In this document: in pieces, positions 787 to 8,795 of the stretch
How the letters are laid out: each line of letters starts with the position of its first letter
Numbering within the stretch: position 1 is the first letter of the stretch
Assembly (NCBI GenBank): GCA_021299185.1
Contig: JAJTHZ010000221.1
Location: forward strand, 1 to 64,000
Origin: Lysobacteraceae bacterium
GTDB taxonomy: Bacteria > Pseudomonadota > Gammaproteobacteria > Xanthomonadales > Ahniellaceae
Direction of reading: 5' to 3'
DNA length: 64,000 nucleotides
Made by a program: the position numbers and the translations under genes
Notes under the pieces: model-generated
Seen by the model: the letters and a program-made list of their open reading frames with translations, nothing else
Database searches by the model: none
What the model was told of the DNA's origin: nothing

Positions 787-2055
787 TCAGCGCCGGCGAC
801 GCCGGCGCGCACGCTTCGCGCCGCGGGTTTCCGCGATCGTCGCCTCGAGGTCGTCGAGCGCGCGGGACAGCCGCGCGATCGGGCGCAGACGGCGCGGCGG
901 CGCGGGTTCCAGGCCGTCGAGCAGCGTGCGCTGGCGGTCCTCGATCACCGCGTCGCGCAGGCGGATGCCGTGGCGCTTGAGCAGCGGCTCGATGACCGCG
1001 CGGCGCGTGCGCAGGTCGTCGAGCGTGGAGCGATAGGCGTGTTCGGTCAGCGTGCGCCGGCTGTCGTAGGAGAAGATGTTGGTGAAGAACATCTCCGCGT
1101 CGTCGGCGTTGGGTTCCAGCAGCACGAGGTCGGTGCCGGCGTACTGCGTGCGGTACTTCTCCAGCCCCACCTGCATGCGCGACTTCAGCAGGGTGCGGAA
1201 GGTCTGCGACAGCACCATCGGCAGGCCGGAGTCGATCAGGCTGCGCGGCACGGCGCGGCCCTGCTGCTGCGCGAGGCTGGCGTCGAACGGCACCAGCGGA
1301 TTGAGGCCGAACACGAGGTCGACGTCCTCGTCCATCGCCACCGAGGCGTGCAGCGTGCGGCGCAACGCGCCGTCGACGTACCAGCGCCCGTCGATCTCGA
1401 CCGGCGGATACAGGCCGGGCAGGGCGGCGCTGGCCTGCACTGCGCGCGAGATCGGCACGTGGTCGTACCCGCGGGCGCCGAAGCGGGTGGTCGCGCCGTT
1501 GTCGAGGTCGACCGCGATCACGAACAGCTTGCGCGGCAACTGACGGAAATCGTTGCTGCGTCCGTGCGCCTCGAACACGTGGCGCAGGAACCGTTCGACC
1601 GCCTCGTTGTCGAACAGCCCGGTGGGGATCAGCGCGCCGAAGCGCCCGATCAGGTCGCTCCAGTTGGTGTCCAGCGGGCGGGTGGCGACGTCGCCGAGCC
1701 ACTGCAGCAGGGCGCGCGGCAGCGCCGCGGCGCGGCGCGCGTACTCGAGGAAGGCCGGGCGCAGGAAGGTCTCGGGCCGGAAGCGCACCGGGCGCGAGTC
1801 GCCGGTGATGAAGATGCGGCACATCTCCGCCGTGGACAGGCCGTTGGCGAGCCCGGCGGCGAGGAAGGAGCCGGAACTCACGCCGACGTAGACGTCGAGC
1901 CGCGTGAGGTCGATCCCCTCGAGGGCGTCGTCGAGCGCGCGCAGCGTGCCCAGTTCGTACATCCCGCCGATCGGCCCGCCGCCGGCGATGGCGATGCCGA
2001 TGCGGCTGCGCGGCTTGCGCCGTTGCGGGCGCGGGGCCTCCTGGACGACGAGCAT
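787..2055 (-). CDS. patatin-like phospholipase family protein
   Basis: A 422-aa patatin-domain protein. The oxyanion-loop motif GGGPIGG lies at residues 25-31, the nucleophile elbow G-V-S-S-G at 58-62 (Ser60), and the catalytic Asp in VDGAL at about residue 228, so the Ser-Asp dyad is intact. Patatins hydrolyse acyl esters of phospholipids or neutral lipids. No signal peptide is seen, so it is probably cytoplasmic or peripheral to membranes or granules. The C-terminus is an arginine-rich tail (RARRRRRR). It lies upstream of the phasin gene on the same strand with a 98-nt gap, which suggests co-transcription and a link to PHA or lipid turnover (inference). The true substrate cannot be read from sequence. 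Confidence 0.88.
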   Translation of the reverse strand: MLVVQEAPRPQRRKPRSRIGIAIAGGGPIGGMYELGTLRALDDALEGIDLTRLDVYVGVSSGSFLAAGLANGLSTAEMCRIFITGDSRPVRFRPETFLRPAFLEYARRAAALPRALLQWLGDVATRPLDTNWSDLIGRFGALIPTGLFDNEAVERFLRHVFEAHGRSNDFRQLPRKLFVIAVDLDNGATTRFGARGYDHVPISRAVQASAALPGLYPPVEIDGRWYVDGALRRTLHASVAMDEDVDLVFGLNPLVPFDASLAQQQGRAVPRSLIDSGLPMVLSQTFRTLLKSRMQVGLEKYRTQYAGTDLVLLEPNADDAEMFFTNIFSYDSRRTLTEHAYRSTLDDLRTRRAVIEPLLKRHGIRLRDAVIEDRQRTLLDGLEPAPPRRLRPIARLSRALDDLEATIAETRGAKRARRRRRR

Positions 2056-2937: not shown

Positions 2938-3213
2938 TCAGCCGAACTCCTTGTCCAGCACGCGGTGGATCTCGGACTCGACCGCGGCCTGGATCGCCAG
3001 CAGGAGGAAGCTCAGGTGCGCCTTGACGTGCACCAGGCCGTCCTGCAGGGCGATGGTCCCATGCACGCCGGGGCGCTCGAAGTGCAGCACGCTGCCCTTC
3101 CAGCCGTACTCGACGTCGAACTTGGCGGCGATCTGGCGCGCGACCTTCTCCACCGATTTGCGCGCTTCCGCGCTGCTCTTGCCGTGCTTGCGGGCGATGT
3201 CGATGCTGGGCAT
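2938..3213 (-). CDS. polyhydroxyalkanoic acid system family protein
   Basis: A 91-aa protein of the PHA_gran_rgn family, small proteins encoded near PHA granule genes in gammaproteobacteria. It starts MPSIDIARKHGKS, with a central FDVEYGWKGSVLHFERPG segment and a helical C-terminus (VESEIHRVLDKEFG). A longer N-terminal extension is open to 3285 but has no family resemblance, so the internal ATG at 3213 was chosen. The molecular role is unknown; the family name reflects genomic context. With the phasin it suggests PHA capacity, although no PHA synthase is in this window. Confidence 0.8.
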   Translation of the reverse strand: MPSIDIARKHGKSSAEARKSVEKVARQIAAKFDVEYGWKGSVLHFERPGVHGTIALQDGLVHVKAHLSFLLLAIQAAVESEIHRVLDKEFG

Positions 3214-3305
3214 GGTCCGGTGGGCTCCGGCGTGCGGGTGGAAGCGCGGTGGGTGCGCCGTGGGGTCCTTCTGGCATGATGCCACGGGACGCGGGGGAGG
3301 CGATG

Positions 3306-3980
3306 ATGCGAACCATCCTGGCGCTGGCGGCGGCGATCGTGCTGCTGGCCGTGGGCGCGGCGCACGCGGGCACGGTCCGCGGCACGCTGGTCCTGTACTC
3401 GGAAGGCAAGCCGCTGCGCGCGGCCGAGGCGGCCGAGGCGGTGATCTGGTTCCGTCCGCGCAGCGCCGTGGCGCTGCCGCCGCCGGGCGAGCCGGCCGTG
3501 ATGCTGACCCGGCGCAAGCAGTTCCATCCGCGGGTGCTGGCGGTGCCGGCAGCCCATTCGGTGCGCTTCCCGAACGAGGACCCGATCCTGCACAACGTGT
3601 TCTCCACCTCGACCGACAACGCCTTCGACGCCGGGCTGTACGGCACCGGCGAGGGCGTGGTGCACGCGTTCCGCAATCCCGGCCTGGTCAAGGTGTACTG
3701 CAACGTGCACCACTCGATGTTCGGCTTCATCGTGGTGCTCGACACGCCGTTCCACACGCGGGCCGGGGTGGACGGTTCGTTCCGGCTCGACGGCCTGCCG
3801 GCGGGGGAGGGCGAACTGGTGGTCTTCCACGACCGCGCCCGGCCGTGGCGGCGCACGCTCGACGTGGCGCAACCCGCGGCGCTGGAGATCCGTCTCGACC
3901 TCGACCGGCGGCGCGTGCCGCCGCACATGAACAAGTTCGGACGTCCCTACGGAGCCCGACCCGATGAACGAAGCTACTGA
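3306..3980 (+). CDS. secreted cupredoxin-like protein
   Basis: A 224-aa protein with a clear signal peptide (LALAAAIVLLAVGAAHA), so periplasmic. It resembles the cupredoxin-fold proteins often annotated as methylamine utilization protein. Candidate type-1 copper ligands are His96 in ILHNVFS and Cys132, His135 or His136, and Met138 in YCNVHHSM. After about residue 150 there is a carboxypeptidase-regulatory-like segment (VDGSFRLDGLPAGEGELVVFHD). Two ATGs stand in tandem (3303, 3306); the second has better spacing from GGAG at 3296. Its 3' end overlaps the following kinase gene by 17 bp, implying translational coupling and a functional link. Copper binding is inferred from the ligand pattern. 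Confidence 0.75.
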   Translation: MRTILALAAAIVLLAVGAAHAGTVRGTLVLYSEGKPLRAAEAAEAVIWFRPRSAVALPPPGEPAVMLTRRKQFHPRVLAVPAAHSVRFPNEDPILHNVFSTSTDNAFDAGLYGTGEGVVHAFRNPGLVKVYCNVHHSMFGFIVVLDTPFHTRAGVDGSFRLDGLPAGEGELVVFHDRARPWRRTLDVAQPAALEIRLDLDRRRVPPHMNKFGRPYGARPDERSY

Positions 3981-6663
3981 GCCGCGGCCGGGGTTCCGCC
4001 TGCCGCTGGCGACCGCGGTCTTCCTGCTGTGCGCGGTGCTGCTGGGGCTCGGCCTGGGGGCGGCGATCTGGTTCACCTGGGACCGCGGCGCGCGCATTGC
4101 CGAGCGCGCGGTGCAGGAGCAACTCGCGGTGTCCGCGGCCGTGCAGCAGGAACTCACCGCGCGGCGCCTCGAGGAAGTGGAGTTCAAGGTGCAGCTGATC
4201 GCCGCCGACCCCAGCTTCGTCAAGTACGTCAGCGACGCCTGGGGCGGCGGTCTGGGACTCGGTGGCGACCTCGGGCTGGACAGCGCCTCGATCAACGACT
4301 TGCTGCGCGAGCGGCAGGAATCGGTCGGCTTCGACCTCGGCCTGATCACCGACCCGGACGGGCGCGTGCTTGCCCGCACCGACCAGGCCGAAGCCTTCGA
4401 GGCCTCGCTGGCCGAGGATCCCTTCATGGCCTCGGCGATCGGCGAGGCCCGCCCGATCAGCGGGTTCTGGCGCGAGGGCGGCGCGCTTTACCAGGCGGCG
4501 GCCTGGCCGCTGGACCTCGACGGCGACCTGGTCGGCTTCATGCTGGTCGCGCTGCGGGTCGACGACGCGCTGTCCGGACGGGTCGGGCGCGCCAGCGGCG
4601 CCGACGTGGCGTTCCTGCTGCCCGAGGGCGACGCGCTGCGACTGATCGGCACCTCGCTGGAAGGCGAACGGCGGCTGGCGCTGGAGGCCGCGCTGTCCGC
4701 CGATCCCGCACTGGCTGCCGCGCTGCGTGGCGGTGGCGCGCAGGCCTCGCTGCCGCTGCGCCTCGGCGCCGAAGCCTGGACCGCGGCGGTGGCGCCGGTG
4801 GACCCGGCGGGAGGCGCCCAGCTCGGCGCGACCCTGCGGCTGGCGTCGGCGGACCGCGCGTCGGCCGGCTACCGCGAGCTGCTCGACCTGCTGCTGCTCG
4901 CCGCCGGTGGCGTGCTGGTGATCGCCGTGCCCTTTTCGTACCTGCTCGCGCGCACCACGTTGCGACCGCTGTCGACGATGGCGCGCGCCGCGACCGCGGC
5001 GGCCAACGGCGACTACCGCACCCGCATCGGCATCCGCGGACGCGACGCGCTCGCGGAGCTGTCGCAGGCGTTCGACACCCTGCTGTCGGACCTGCGCGAA
5101 AAGAGCGACATCCAGGGCTACGTCTCCAACCTGTCGCGCTTCCTGCCCGATCCTGCCGCGGATGCGCCGACCGGGCGCTCGTTCGTCACCCAGCCCGACG
5201 CCAACCCGGGCGCACCCGGCGAGGCACCGCGGCGTGGCCCGGCGCTGCTGCTCGCGCTGGACCTGCGCGGGCTCGCGCGGCTGCCGGAAGGCGGACCGGA
5301 GGCGCCGCTGGCGTCGGCTGCGGAGCGCGCGCGCGATCTGCTGTCGGCGGCGACCGCGCAGTCCGGACGGCTGGTCGCGCACGCCGGCGCGCGGCTGACC
5401 TTCGCCTTCGATTCGGCGGATCGGCTGGCGCGCGCGCTGGCGGTCGCGCGCGAGGCCCTGCGCGACGATCCGGCGACCGCGGGGGCGCTGCTCGAGGGCG
5501 ATGTCGTGGCCGGAACGCTCAAGGTCGGCCGCGACAGCCAGCGCGTGCTGCTGGGTGCGCCGGCGCACCAGCTCGACCGGCTGGTGGTGGAGGCCGGCGC
5601 GGGACGCGTGCTGCTGCCGAAGTCGCTGGGCGAGGCGGCGCGCGGGCTGCTCGGCGGGATCACGGTGCCGGTGCAGCAGGGTGCGGCCAGCGGCAAGCCG
5701 TTCTACGCGCTCGACGCCGCGTCCCTGGCGCCCCTGGCCGCGCCCGCGCGCGTGGTCGACGATGGCGAGGGCATGCGCACGGTCGAGCAGCCGGTCGCCG
5801 CCACGCCGGCGCCGCGCACGGCGCGCTCGGCCGAACTGGCGGCAGGCACGCGGCTCGGTGGGCGCTACGACATCCTCGGCGTGCTCGGCGCCGGCGGGAT
5901 GGGTGTGGTCTACAAGGCGCGCGACATCGAGCTCGATGACGTGGTCGCGCTGAAGATGCTCAAGCCCGGTGCGCTGTCGGACCCGGAGCAGATCGAACGC
6001 CTCAAGAGCGAGATCCGGCTGGCGCGCAAGATCACCCACCCCAACGTGCTGCGCACCTTCGACTTCGGCGAGGTCGAAGGCCGGCCCTACATCTCGATGG
6101 AATACGTGCGCGGCATGACGCTGCGCTACCTAATCAAGCAGGCGGGGCGGATCCCCTATTCGGCGGCGCTGCGGATCGCGCGCCAACTGTGCGCGGGCCT
6201 GGCCGCCGCGCACGAGGTCGGCGTCCTGCACCGCGACATCAAGCCGGAGAACCTGATCCTCGAGTCCAGCGGCAACGCCAAGCTGATGGACTTCGGGATC
6301 GCGCGGCCGATCCAGCAGCGCGCCGACTCGGGCCTGACCCAGCCCGGCATGTTCGTCGGCACGCCGGCCTACTCGGCCCCGGAGCAGATCGCCGGCATGG
6401 CGGTCGACGAGCGCGCCGACGTCTATGCCAGCGGCGTGCTGATGTGCGAGATGTTCTGCGGCAAGGTGCCGTTCGAGAGCAGCAACACGATGGAGATCTA
6501 CCTCGCGCGGATGCAGCAGGAGCCGATCCGCCCCTCGCAGTGGTGGGCCGAGATTCCGCCGCCGCTGGAGGCGGTCATCCTGCGCTGCATCCAGCGCGAG
6601 CCGAGCGCGCGCTTCCAGAGCGCGACGGAACTCGGCACCGCCCTCTCGGGCTTGCGTGCCTGA
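3964..6663 (+). CDS. membrane sensor Ser/Thr protein kinase with HAMP and cyclase-like domain
   Basis: An 899-aa protein. In order: a transmembrane helix (about 14-38); a roughly 265-aa periplasmic sensor region, cache-like; a second transmembrane helix (about 303-325); a HAMP linker (about 327-380); a class III cyclase-like domain (about 425-590); and a C-terminal eukaryotic-type kinase domain (about 633-895). The kinase is complete: glycine loop GAGGMGVVYKA, Lys664 in VALKMLK, HRDIKPEN with Asp758, DFG at 776-778, and GTPAYSAPEQ. The cyclase-like part keeps LALDLRGL (Asp433) but lacks the second metal-binding Asp and the catalytic Asn, so it is probably a non-catalytic sensory or dimerisation module. 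The gene overlaps the cupredoxin gene by 17 bp; a double-FHA protein lies downstream. It probably phosphorylates Ser/Thr in response to a periplasmic cue. Confidence 0.9.
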   Translation: MNEATEPRPGFRLPLATAVFLLCAVLLGLGLGAAIWFTWDRGARIAERAVQEQLAVSAAVQQELTARRLEEVEFKVQLIAADPSFVKYVSDAWGGGLGLGGDLGLDSASINDLLRERQESVGFDLGLITDPDGRVLARTDQAEAFEASLAEDPFMASAIGEARPISGFWREGGALYQAAAWPLDLDGDLVGFMLVALRVDDALSGRVGRASGADVAFLLPEGDALRLIGTSLEGERRLALEAALSADPALAAALRGGGAQASLPLRLGAEAWTAAVAPVDPAGGAQLGATLRLASADRASAGYRELLDLLLLAAGGVLVIAVPFSYLLARTTLRPLSTMARAATAAANGDYRTRIGIRGRDALAELSQAFDTLLSDLREKSDIQGYVSNLSRFLPDPAADAPTGRSFVTQPDANPGAPGEAPRRGPALLLALDLRGLARLPEGGPEAPLASAAERARDLLSAATAQSGRLVAHAGARLTFAFDSADRLARALAVAREALRDDPATAGALLEGDVVAGTLKVGRDSQRVLLGAPAHQLDRLVVEAGAGRVLLPKSLGEAARGLLGGITVPVQQGAASGKPFYALDAASLAPLAAPARVVDDGEGMRTVEQPVAATPAPRTARSAELAAGTRLGGRYDILGVLGAGGMGVVYKARDIELDDVVALKMLKPGALSDPEQIERLKSEIRLARKITHPNVLRTFDFGEVEGRPYISMEYVRGMTLRYLIKQAGRIPYSAALRIARQLCAGLAAAHEVGVLHRDIKPENLILESSGNAKLMDFGIARPIQQRADSGLTQPGMFVGTPAYSAPEQIAGMAVDERADVYASGVLMCEMFCGKVPFESSNTMEIYLARMQQEPIRPSQWWAEIPPPLEAVILRCIQREPSARFQSATELGTALSGLRA

Positions 6664-6667
6664 GCGG

Positions 6668-6696
6668 TTGACACCCATTAATCAAAGAGTTACATA
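6668..6696 (+). promoter_or_regulatory. sigma-70 promoter of the beta-barrel gene
   Basis: TTGACA at 6668-6673 (6/6 consensus) and TACATA at 6691-6696 are separated by exactly 17 nt. The intervening sequence is AT-rich in an otherwise GC-rich region. The start codon lies 41 nt downstream of the -10 box, so the beta-barrel gene is probably transcribed independently of the kinase gene. Confidence 0.8.
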
Positions 6697-6736
6697 GGCA
6701 ACTTGAAGCGGATTCTCGTCCGCGCCTGGAGCCTGC

Positions 6737-7834
6737 ATGTCCGGTCTCGCCCGCTACGCCTGCGCGCTGGCGCTGGCTCTGCTGGCGCCTTCCTGGGCCC
6801 ATGCGCAGGCCGGCGACGGCTTCGACTACGACCCGTCCGCCGCCGAGGGCGCCCACCTGTCGTGGTTCTCGAACCTGCTGTTGCGCGGCGACTGGGCACG
6901 CGACCTGCCGCAGAACCTGCCCGACGAGCAGCGCGGCATGGCGCGCCTGCGCGCCGGCCTGCTGTGGCTGCCGGATGACGCCTGGGAAGTGGCCGCGGCA
7001 CTGGAGGCCTCGCGCGGCAGCGACAGCGCGCGCATCGTGCGCCTCGCGCACGACAACCACCGCACCAACGACCTCAACGTCGACCTGCTGTACGTCAAGC
7101 GGCGCTTCGGCGATCAGGGCAGCGTGACGCTCGGCAAGCAGGGGCTGCCGCTCGACTTGACGCCGATGGTCTGGGACCCCGAGGTGCGCCCGGTCGGGCT
7201 GGCGGTCGAGCACTCGATCGCGGTCGGCGACTTCGATCGCGTGGTGCTGGCCGGCGGCGCGTGGCTCGGCGACCACCTGTACGGCGACACCTCGCGCCTG
7301 CTGGCGCTGCAGGCCGGCTGGCGCCTGCGCGAGGGGGCGCCCCACAGCGGCGGCATCCTGCTGTCGCTGCTCGCCTTCGACGAACTCGACGACCTGGTGC
7401 GGGGCGGGCTGGCGCGCAGCAACCGGGTGGTCGGCGGGCGCTTCGACAGCGACTTCCGCCTCGCCGACCTGCAACTGGCCTACGACACGCGCATCGCCGG
7501 CGCGCCGCTGCGCACGCGCATCGACCTGGTGCGCAACCTCGGCGCCGACCGCGACCGCGACGGCGCGCGCGGCAGCGTCGTGTGGGGCGATGCCCGCGAG
7601 GCCGGCGCGCTCGAACTGGGCTTCTCCTACCAGCGGGTGCAGCGCGACGCCGTGCTGGCGGCCTTCAACTCGGAGGACTGGTGGTTCCACAGCGCGATGC
7701 GCGGTGCGATGCCGTGGATCGGCTACGGCATCGACGACACCTGGCGCGTGCAGCTCGCGCTGTTCCTCGAGCGCGCCGACGGCCGCGCCGAGGACACCGA
7801 GCGCGCGCTGCTCGACCTGCGGGCGGACTGGTGA
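6737..7834 (+). CDS. putative outer-membrane beta-barrel (porin-like) protein
   Basis: A 365-aa protein with a signal peptide (YACALALALLAPSWAHAQ) followed by alternating amphipathic strands with many aromatic and Arg/Asp residues. It ends in an aromatic residue (LLDLRADW), as beta-barrel outer-membrane proteins usually do for BAM recognition. Segments such as YVKRRFGDQGSVTLGKQ and LGFSYQRVQRDAVLAAF resemble short-strand porins. I cannot place it in a named porin family. It follows the kinase gene but has its own strong promoter at 6668-6696. Confidence 0.65.
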   Translation: MSGLARYACALALALLAPSWAHAQAGDGFDYDPSAAEGAHLSWFSNLLLRGDWARDLPQNLPDEQRGMARLRAGLLWLPDDAWEVAAALEASRGSDSARIVRLAHDNHRTNDLNVDLLYVKRRFGDQGSVTLGKQGLPLDLTPMVWDPEVRPVGLAVEHSIAVGDFDRVVLAGGAWLGDHLYGDTSRLLALQAGWRLREGAPHSGGILLSLLAFDELDDLVRGGLARSNRVVGGRFDSDFRLADLQLAYDTRIAGAPLRTRIDLVRNLGADRDRDGARGSVVWGDAREAGALELGFSYQRVQRDAVLAAFNSEDWWFHSAMRGAMPWIGYGIDDTWRVQLALFLERADGRAEDTERALLDLRADW

Positions 7835-7861
7835 ATCGCGGCCGGCCGTCGCGAGGGCTTG

Positions 7862-7870
7862 TGCTAAAGT
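7862..7870 (+). promoter_or_regulatory. possible extended -10 (TGCTAAAGT) before the FHA gene
   Basis: TGC followed by TAAAGT (4/6 to consensus) fits an extended -10 element. It lies 28 nt before the GTG start at 7899. No convincing -35 box is visible, which is common for extended -10 promoters. Confidence 0.35.
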
Positions 7871-7898
7871 CCGGCGCAGGGGATGGGCGGGGTATCGC

Positions 7899-8795
7899 GT
7901 GCGCCTGAGCTTTCCGAAGGGTGAACATGCCGACGTGATCGTCGCCCCGGGCGAGACCACGATCGGAGCGGCGAGCGACAACGCCGTGGTCGTGCGCGTC
8001 GGCGGCGTGCAGTCCCACCATGCGACCATCCTCGCCGACCTGCGCGGATTCACGCTGCTGGTCCGCGACCCCGGCGCCCGCACCCACGTCAACGCGCGGC
8101 CGGTCCGCGAGAAGGCGATCCTGCGCCTCGGCGACGTGGTCAGCGTCGACTCGGTGAACATCGTGCTCAAGCCCGACAGCGACGCGGCGATCGAACCCGC
8201 GCCGCCGGCGGACGGAAACGGGGCAGGCGCCATGACGGACCCGGAAGGCAACATCGAGACCCGCTACAGGGTGTCGCCGCCGCGCGCAGTGCTGCGCGGC
8301 GTGTCGGGACCTTACTTCGGCAAGGTCATCCCGATCCACGGACGGCTCGAGATCGGTCGCGGGCCGGAGTGCGGGCTGGTGCTCGACGAACCGGAGATGT
8401 CGCGTCGCCACGCGATGATCGAGGTCAGCACCCACGAGATCTACCTGCGCGACCTCGGCTCGGCCAACGGCACCTTCGTCAACGGCGTGCAGGTGCGCGA
8501 CGCGGTGCTCTATCCCGGCGACCAGATCGCCTTCGATCGCAATCGCTTCCTGGTCGAGGCGCCGGGCATGGCGCCGCGCCGCAACGAGCCGCGCACGCCG
8601 ACCGCCATGCCGGCGGTCGAGCGGGCCCCGCAGGTCACCCAGACCATGCGCGCGATCCGCGTCGACGATCCGCCGCCCGTGGCCGAGCCCGTGGCGGACG
8701 AGGGCCGGTCGGGTGGCTGGAACCCGTGGGCACTGCTGGCCGCGGCGGTCCTCATCGCCGGCGCCTTCGCGCTGTTGATCCTCGGATTCCGCTGA
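7899..8795 (+). CDS. double FHA-domain protein with C-terminal membrane anchor
   Basis: A 298-aa protein with two forkhead-associated domains, modules that bind phosphothreonine peptides. The second (about residues 140-225) is canonical: LEIGRG, EMSRRH and SANGTFVNG. The first (about 5-90) keeps SHHA and HVNARPV but has IGAAS where the phosphate-binding Gly-Arg should be, so it is probably degenerate. A Pro-rich linker follows, then one transmembrane helix (WALLAAAVLIAGAFALLIL) at the extreme C-terminus, giving a tail-anchored topology with the FHA domains in the cytoplasm. It starts at GTG (MRLSFPKGEH), since no ATG is in frame nearby. It is a plausible receptor for the kinase encoded at 3964-6663 (inference from proximity). 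Confidence 0.88.
   Translation: MRLSFPKGEHADVIVAPGETTIGAASDNAVVVRVGGVQSHHATILADLRGFTLLVRDPGARTHVNARPVREKAILRLGDVVSVDSVNIVLKPDSDAAIEPAPPADGNGAGAMTDPEGNIETRYRVSPPRAVLRGVSGPYFGKVIPIHGRLEIGRGPECGLVLDEPEMSRRHAMIEVSTHEIYLRDLGSANGTFVNGVQVRDAVLYPGDQIAFDRNRFLVEAPGMAPRRNEPRTPTAMPAVERAPQVTQTMRAIRVDDPPPVAEPVADEGRSGGWNPWALLAAAVLIAGAFALLILGFR

Follow-up and report, generated by a model that had tools for sequence, protein, structure and literature searches.

A cupredoxin gene paired with a dCache_3 sensor Ser/Thr kinase and an outer-membrane barrel gene: a candidate redox-responsive envelope receptor

Four genes lying in a row on the forward strand of the DNA stretch analyzed here (64,000 nucleotides, hereafter the window) raise the question of whether a cupredoxin acts as the periplasmic input of a membrane kinase and which of the neighboring genes belong to such a system. 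Reading and translation of the sequence confirmed the positions given in the initial annotation for a cupredoxin gene (3306..3980, 224 aa), a gene encoding a membrane sensor Ser/Thr kinase (3964..6663, 899 aa), an outer-membrane barrel gene (6737..7834, 365 aa; 16 strands in a porin-like fold) and a double-FHA gene (7899..8795) that has a GTG start and encodes a C-terminal transmembrane helix. The 17-bp overlap between the cupredoxin and kinase genes claimed there was also found to be exactly 17 nt long (3964-3980). A promoter and terminator scan of the cluster gave no result, and an AT-rich TTGACA was noticed, by eye only, at about 6669, 5' of the barrel gene.

The product of the first gene carries a Sec signal peptide (about residues 1-21), followed by a type-1 copper domain and a C-terminal CarboxypepD_reg-like domain with a conserved VPxHxNKFGxPY tail, and related genes are annotated at NCBI as "methylamine utilization protein." The Pfam Copper-bind match was under the cut-off (E 0.011), and comparison of a profile of the cupredoxin family with solved copper proteins reached an E value of 6.6e-12 with the cupredoxin domain of NirK. 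When an AF2 model of the protein (pLDDT 90) was used in Foldseek searches, it matched plastocyanin (TMt up to 0.80), amicyanin (up to 0.74) and also pseudoazurin, and the model thus predicts a cupredoxin beta-sandwich. The window protein has the fold and the His-Cys-His-Met ligands in common with amicyanin, pseudoazurin and plastocyanin, at about 18-26% identity, but it differs from them in its fused CarboxypepD_reg-like domain and in being paired with a signal receptor rather than with an oxidoreductase. The predicted copper ligands are H96 (3591-3593), C132 (3699-3701), H135 (3708-3710) and M138 (3717-3719), all read on the forward strand, and the predicted copper loop has the form C-x2-H-x2-M. 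Conservation of these ligands had been put forward as a test of the initial hypothesis, and all four are among the eleven invariant columns in an alignment of 32 cupredoxins with identities down to 23%; the same invariance was obtained with 34 cupredoxins from around the kinase form. A His, Cys, His (plus Met) type-1 ligand set is therefore predicted in the window protein.

The second gene encodes, in this order, a transmembrane helix, a dCache_3 domain, another transmembrane helix, a HAMP linker, a middle domain and a Hanks-type Ser/Thr kinase domain, the helices having been read from the sequence. The periplasmic dCache_3 sensor domain (PF14827) lies between the two helices (4078..4863), with a Pfam match over residues 106-288 (4279-4827; E 1e-6, 29.0 bits against a Pfam cut-off of 25.7), and the HAMP linker covers residues 327-379 (4942..5100; E 1e-8, 35.4 bits against a cut-off of 25). 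The middle domain (about residues 415-585, 5206..5718) is degenerate and matches class III adenylate cyclases at the fold level in profile searches (2w01, E 3.4e-6). Since none of the 30 aligned members retains the second metal-binding Asp or the transition-state Asn, this domain should be catalytically dead as a cyclase. The kinase domain itself (residues 635-885, 5866..6618) matches Pkinase (PF00069) with an E value of 9e-53, and the residues of its VAxK, HRDxKxxN and DFG motifs (K664, H756-R757-D758, K760, N763 and D776-F777-G778) are conserved in at least 95% of the sequences. A reading of the annotated "sensor kinase" as a histidine kinase was discarded in favor of a Hanks-type Ser/Thr kinase, with the Pkinase, HAMP and dCache_3 matches all above the Pfam cut-offs and with no HisKA or HATPase found by the Pfam scan of the window's kinase. 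A role in anti-phage defense, suggested by PADLOC matches to PD-T4-6 and the like, was likewise rejected because only the generic kinase domain was matched and the cluster has no defense context.

The third gene, whose signal peptide was read from the sequence, belongs to no named sequence family according to Pfam and NCBIfam scans. Its AF2 model (pLDDT 89) shows 16 strands and has OmpM1 as the best Foldseek match (E 4.7e-13, TM 0.64/0.74), and the product is on this basis predicted to be a porin-type outer-membrane barrel.

Is this arrangement kept in relatives? Cupredoxin relatives were detected in 56 of 121 genomes of the order, and a search of the same genomes with the sensor half of the kinase gave 41 matches at E<1e-20, of which 38 lay directly beside a cupredoxin gene and the remaining 3 at contig ends. 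We also analyzed 80 named loci from genomes of GTDB species, which were located by cupredoxin patterns and so test neighbors rather than frequency; they include Dokdonella, Tahibacter, Rudaea, Chiayiivirga, Wenzhouxiangella, Pseudomarimonas and Acidobacteriota such as Thermoanaerobaculia. In all 78 named loci with room for it, a dCache sensor gene came directly after the cupredoxin gene, in the same orientation, and a full dCache-kinase gene occupied that position in 66 of 66 loci, most of them with overlapping or abutting genes. Barrel genes recur next to the cupredoxin and sensor pair: a barrel was present in 55 of 63 named loci (window-type in 45 of 63), none being recognized in the other 8 with the three barrel profiles used, and within the 121 genomes each of the 22 strong barrel matches lies 3' of the kinase gene or adjoins its C-terminal end on a broken contig. 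The order cupredoxin-kinase-barrel (hereafter the triad) is found in several families of Lysobacterales and in a second gammaproteobacterial order, and the order cupredoxin-kinase occurs in Acidobacteriota, often with another barrel. That these genes are neighbors merely by chance or by shared inheritance of gene order is very improbable, because the recurring loci have 40-60% protein identity and differing surroundings and the pair extends to Acidobacteriota; gene order is conserved far beyond chance for cupredoxin, kinase and barrel, and more weakly for the FHA gene. Such an explanation could hold for the FHA gene and for the small gene upstream of the cluster (2938-3285), which would then be background synteny.

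The initial annotation had counted the FHA gene as a fourth part, with the second FHA domain reading a phosphothreonine output, and it had made co-occurrence of the four genes in related genomes a test of the hypothesis. The cupredoxin, dCache-kinase and barrel genes do hold together in relatives, and the FHA gene behaves as a separable neighbor. Its product matches PF00498 over two stretches (E 3e-27); FHA1 is degenerate, and FHA2 (about 8349-8534) retains the GR/SxxH/NGT consensus for phosphothreonine binding in the motifs LEIGRG, MSRRHA and DLGSANGTFVNG. These motifs, together with the fact that a kinase gene next to an FHA gene is a known bacterial pattern, would suit a system of four parts, with an FHA protein dedicated to recognizing phosphothreonine produced by the kinase, and so would the gene's position as the next gene 3' on the same strand at 22 of the 59 loci (at 21 of the 42 that have a window-type barrel) and beside the triad in 14 of the 23 triad genomes of the order, some such loci having no serC found nearby (L042). 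However, the FHA gene lies elsewhere in the other 9 triad genomes, FHA homologues occur in 95 of the 121 genomes of the order, most of which do not have the triad, the acidobacterial copies of the cluster generally lack it, and in one genome (G105) it sits in a phasin-patatin-small gene-FHA-serC neighborhood with the triad about 27 kb away. An obligate linkage between the FHA and kinase genes was thus not found, the FHA protein is probably a separable neighbor, and a dedicated four-part system appears quite unlikely. The linkage lends no support to FHA2 reading phosphothreonine made by this kinase, which may nevertheless use the FHA protein.

Upstream of the cluster, the window contains a small protein gene (2938-3285, reverse strand), a gene for a patatin-like protein (787-2055, reverse strand) and a phasin gene (182-688), whose positions are kept in many members of the family. 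These three genes are gene-order background and lie outside the sensor.

The same cupredoxin family was found to be combined with other outputs. It occurs across the phylum, and among 40 loci that were fetched, the commonest neighbor, in 25, was a GGDEF-EAL protein. A dCache_3 match was present in all ten GGDEF-EAL neighbors scanned, in two cases slightly below the Pfam cut-off, and six further GGDEF-EAL neighbors with dCache_3 came from the order itself; DUF3034 was encoded in 20 and a truncated globin in 19 of the 40 loci. Elsewhere, the neighbor is a histidine kinase that matches dCache_3 weakly (L104), a MauG-type di-heme cytochrome c peroxidase followed by a HAMP-PAS-HK-REC protein (L125, 2221-6829) or a dCache_3-HAMP-class III cyclase that has kept its catalytic residues (L124, 2080-3849). 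At other loci from the order, the partners are output-less or carry a degenerate kinase, with CHASE4-type matches, and in L076 the partner is CHASE4-HK-REC. The output is hence exchanged on a cupredoxin and dCache_3 pair. In a tree of 90 cupredoxins, the Ser/Thr-kinase side is separated from the GGDEF-EAL side with a support of 99/85. The dead middle domain and the single example of L124 suggest that the Ser/Thr kinase may have been appended to a sensor with a cyclase output, but since the L124 cupredoxin is placed on the GGDEF-EAL side, L124 would not be the direct ancestor. As minor observations, the cupredoxins in L054 (7929-9584) and L059 (7829-9502) have neighbors that combine a CHASE4-type domain with a degenerate protein-kinase region matched weakly, and these are possible pseudokinase outputs. 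Genes for an ECF sigma factor plus a ChrR-cupin or RskA-type anti-sigma factor lie near the cupredoxin or sensor in L067 (6474-6926, where only the ChrR cupin was scanned), L069 (7803-8907), L075 (2110-3455) and L079 (3683-4866), frequently at loci whose sensor lacks an output domain, and release of the sigma factor may be a further output in this family.

If the cupredoxin is the periplasmic partner of the sensor, one would expect what is seen here, a constant cupredoxin and dCache-type sensor with a variable output. We therefore lean, with some reserve, toward a reading in which the cluster encodes an envelope receptor dependent on the cupredoxin, with a Ser/Thr kinase as its form of output and a signal that would most likely be redox in nature. 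According to this model, the cupredoxin, which we infer to be loaded with copper, would be the dedicated periplasmic input subunit of the sensor encoded directly 3' and would contact dCache_3 depending on its own copper or redox state. The change in dCache_3 would pass through HAMP to the dead cyclase-like domain and switch the Ser/Thr kinase toward its presumed targets. The barrel would be the outer-membrane part that admits the signal molecule or helps to reduce or oxidize it, the signal being an oxidant, O2/NO or the state of an electron carrier rather than copper concentration. Several observations count against this model: no natural fusion of cupredoxin and sensor was recognized, the long frames around some cupredoxins looking like spurious GC-rich frames; once the kinase domain is controlled for, cupredoxin and dCache distances co-vary modestly (partial r 0.39, uncorrected for non-independence in the tree); some cupredoxins have no sensor; dCache_3 is a general domain; and 8 of 63 loci have no recognized barrel. 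As to the domain, dCache_3 was rejected as a cupredoxin-specific domain, since within the class the majority of dCache_3 proteins are encoded away from any cupredoxin gene.

The initial proposal of a copper- or redox-linked periplasmic sensor fits these results, and the neighboring genes favor redox over copper level. If the cupredoxin loaded and lost copper with the periplasmic copper concentration and only one of the two forms engaged dCache, the system would be a copper-level sensor, in line with the invariant type-1 ligand set and with a sensor that appears to have no conserved metal ligands of its own: the family alignment showed no His, Met or Cys conserved at 85% or more in the N-terminal half of the sensor, and metal is thus not obviously bound by dCache itself. 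Type-1 sites usually hold copper firmly and function in electron transfer, and such a site fits a concentration gauge poorly. Moreover, no copper-handling genes, whether for export or chaperones, were recognized near the cluster in the window or in the neighbor lists of relatives (mostly read from sequence and scanned in part), which instead include the truncated globin, the MauG-type peroxidase and the ChrR-cupin/ECF-sigma genes. We consequently consider copper-level sensing unlikely.

The cupredoxin and the barrel could also form a unit for electron transfer or substrate uptake that the kinase merely regulates, without any contact between cupredoxin and sensor. The MauG-type peroxidase beside one cupredoxin and the amicyanin/pseudoazurin-like fold, which is that of electron carriers, agree with this possibility, as do L100, L107, L118 and L122, where the cupredoxin is accompanied by a barrel or DUF3034 without an adjacent sensor and may thus have a job of its own. 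Regulation alone, however, would hardly explain the strict pairing of cupredoxin and sensor, the overlapping starts and the survival of the pair through a change of output, so that we view this explanation, too, with considerable doubt.

Known systems resemble the proposed cupredoxin-dependent receptor in parts. In the accepted view of LuxP-LuxQ and TorT-TorS, the signal reaches a membrane receptor through a periplasmic partner whose gene lies next to that of the receptor; in the window, the partner is a cupredoxin, the receptor domain is dCache_3 and the output is a Ser/Thr kinase. CusS and CopS are histidine kinases that work with a response regulator and bind copper in their own periplasmic domain. 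The window system would likewise report the periplasmic copper or redox state, but its sensor has no conserved metal ligand and its output is a Ser/Thr kinase. PpkA-Fha of type VI secretion also places a Hanks-type membrane kinase beside an FHA protein, whereas the window has no recognized secretion genes near the cluster and its FHA gene is separable. The cupredoxins of Sideroxydans belong to an extracellular mineral-oxidation cluster, a context different from that of the window (PMC12016527).

The initial annotation knew of no described system with these four parts, and searches of the open-access literature on cupredoxins together with kinase, GGDEF, c-di-GMP, DUF3034 or globin agree with this, having yielded no description of such a system. 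There is besides a broader undescribed family, the GGDEF-EAL/DUF3034/globin clusters, which are widespread in Gammaproteobacteria and other Proteobacteria and are annotated, no characterization having been found as far as searched; an example is plasmid pSBC2-4 of Caballeronia sp. SBC2, with genes for DUF3034, a group 1 truncated hemoglobin, a "methylamine utilization protein" and an EAL protein. These clusters and the window have in common a homologous cupredoxin with the same invariant ligands, a dCache_3-HAMP sensor encoded directly 3' and an outer-membrane-type gene nearby, and they differ in having c-di-GMP domains instead of a Ser/Thr kinase, DUF3034 instead of the window-type barrel and an added globin. 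DUF3034 gave no match in the window's genome, and the control genomes likewise gave none.

We tentatively propose, as a possibility with somewhat less than even chances, an undescribed class of envelope receptors in which a cupredoxin would carry the signal for dCache_3, the outputs (Ser/Thr kinase, c-di-GMP GGDEF-EAL, cAMP-type cyclase, histidine kinase and perhaps ECF sigma) would be interchangeable and a barrel would feed the system; the dead cyclase of the window form may then be a relic of a cyclase ancestor. Few bacterial systems are known that sense oxidants or the redox state beyond the inner membrane. A receptor type that retains its cupredoxin while the output is exchanged would give homologous sensors with which to dissect the input step, and a testable role would follow for many genes annotated as "methylamine utilization protein," "DUF3034" and "EAL domain protein." The class would also offer a membrane Ser/Thr kinase from a Gram-negative bacterium whose extracytoplasmic signal could be defined.

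Finally, other genes were observed on the 5' side of the cupredoxin. A response-regulator-type gene abuts it upstream in L147, L155 and L158 (Lysobacter sp. CAU 1642, Pseudomarimonas arenosa and an uncultured relative), and a DUF4394 gene lies directly 5' of it in two unrelated loci, L121 (5243-6136) and L211 (3422-4372), the latter on a plasmid of Comamonas aquatica.
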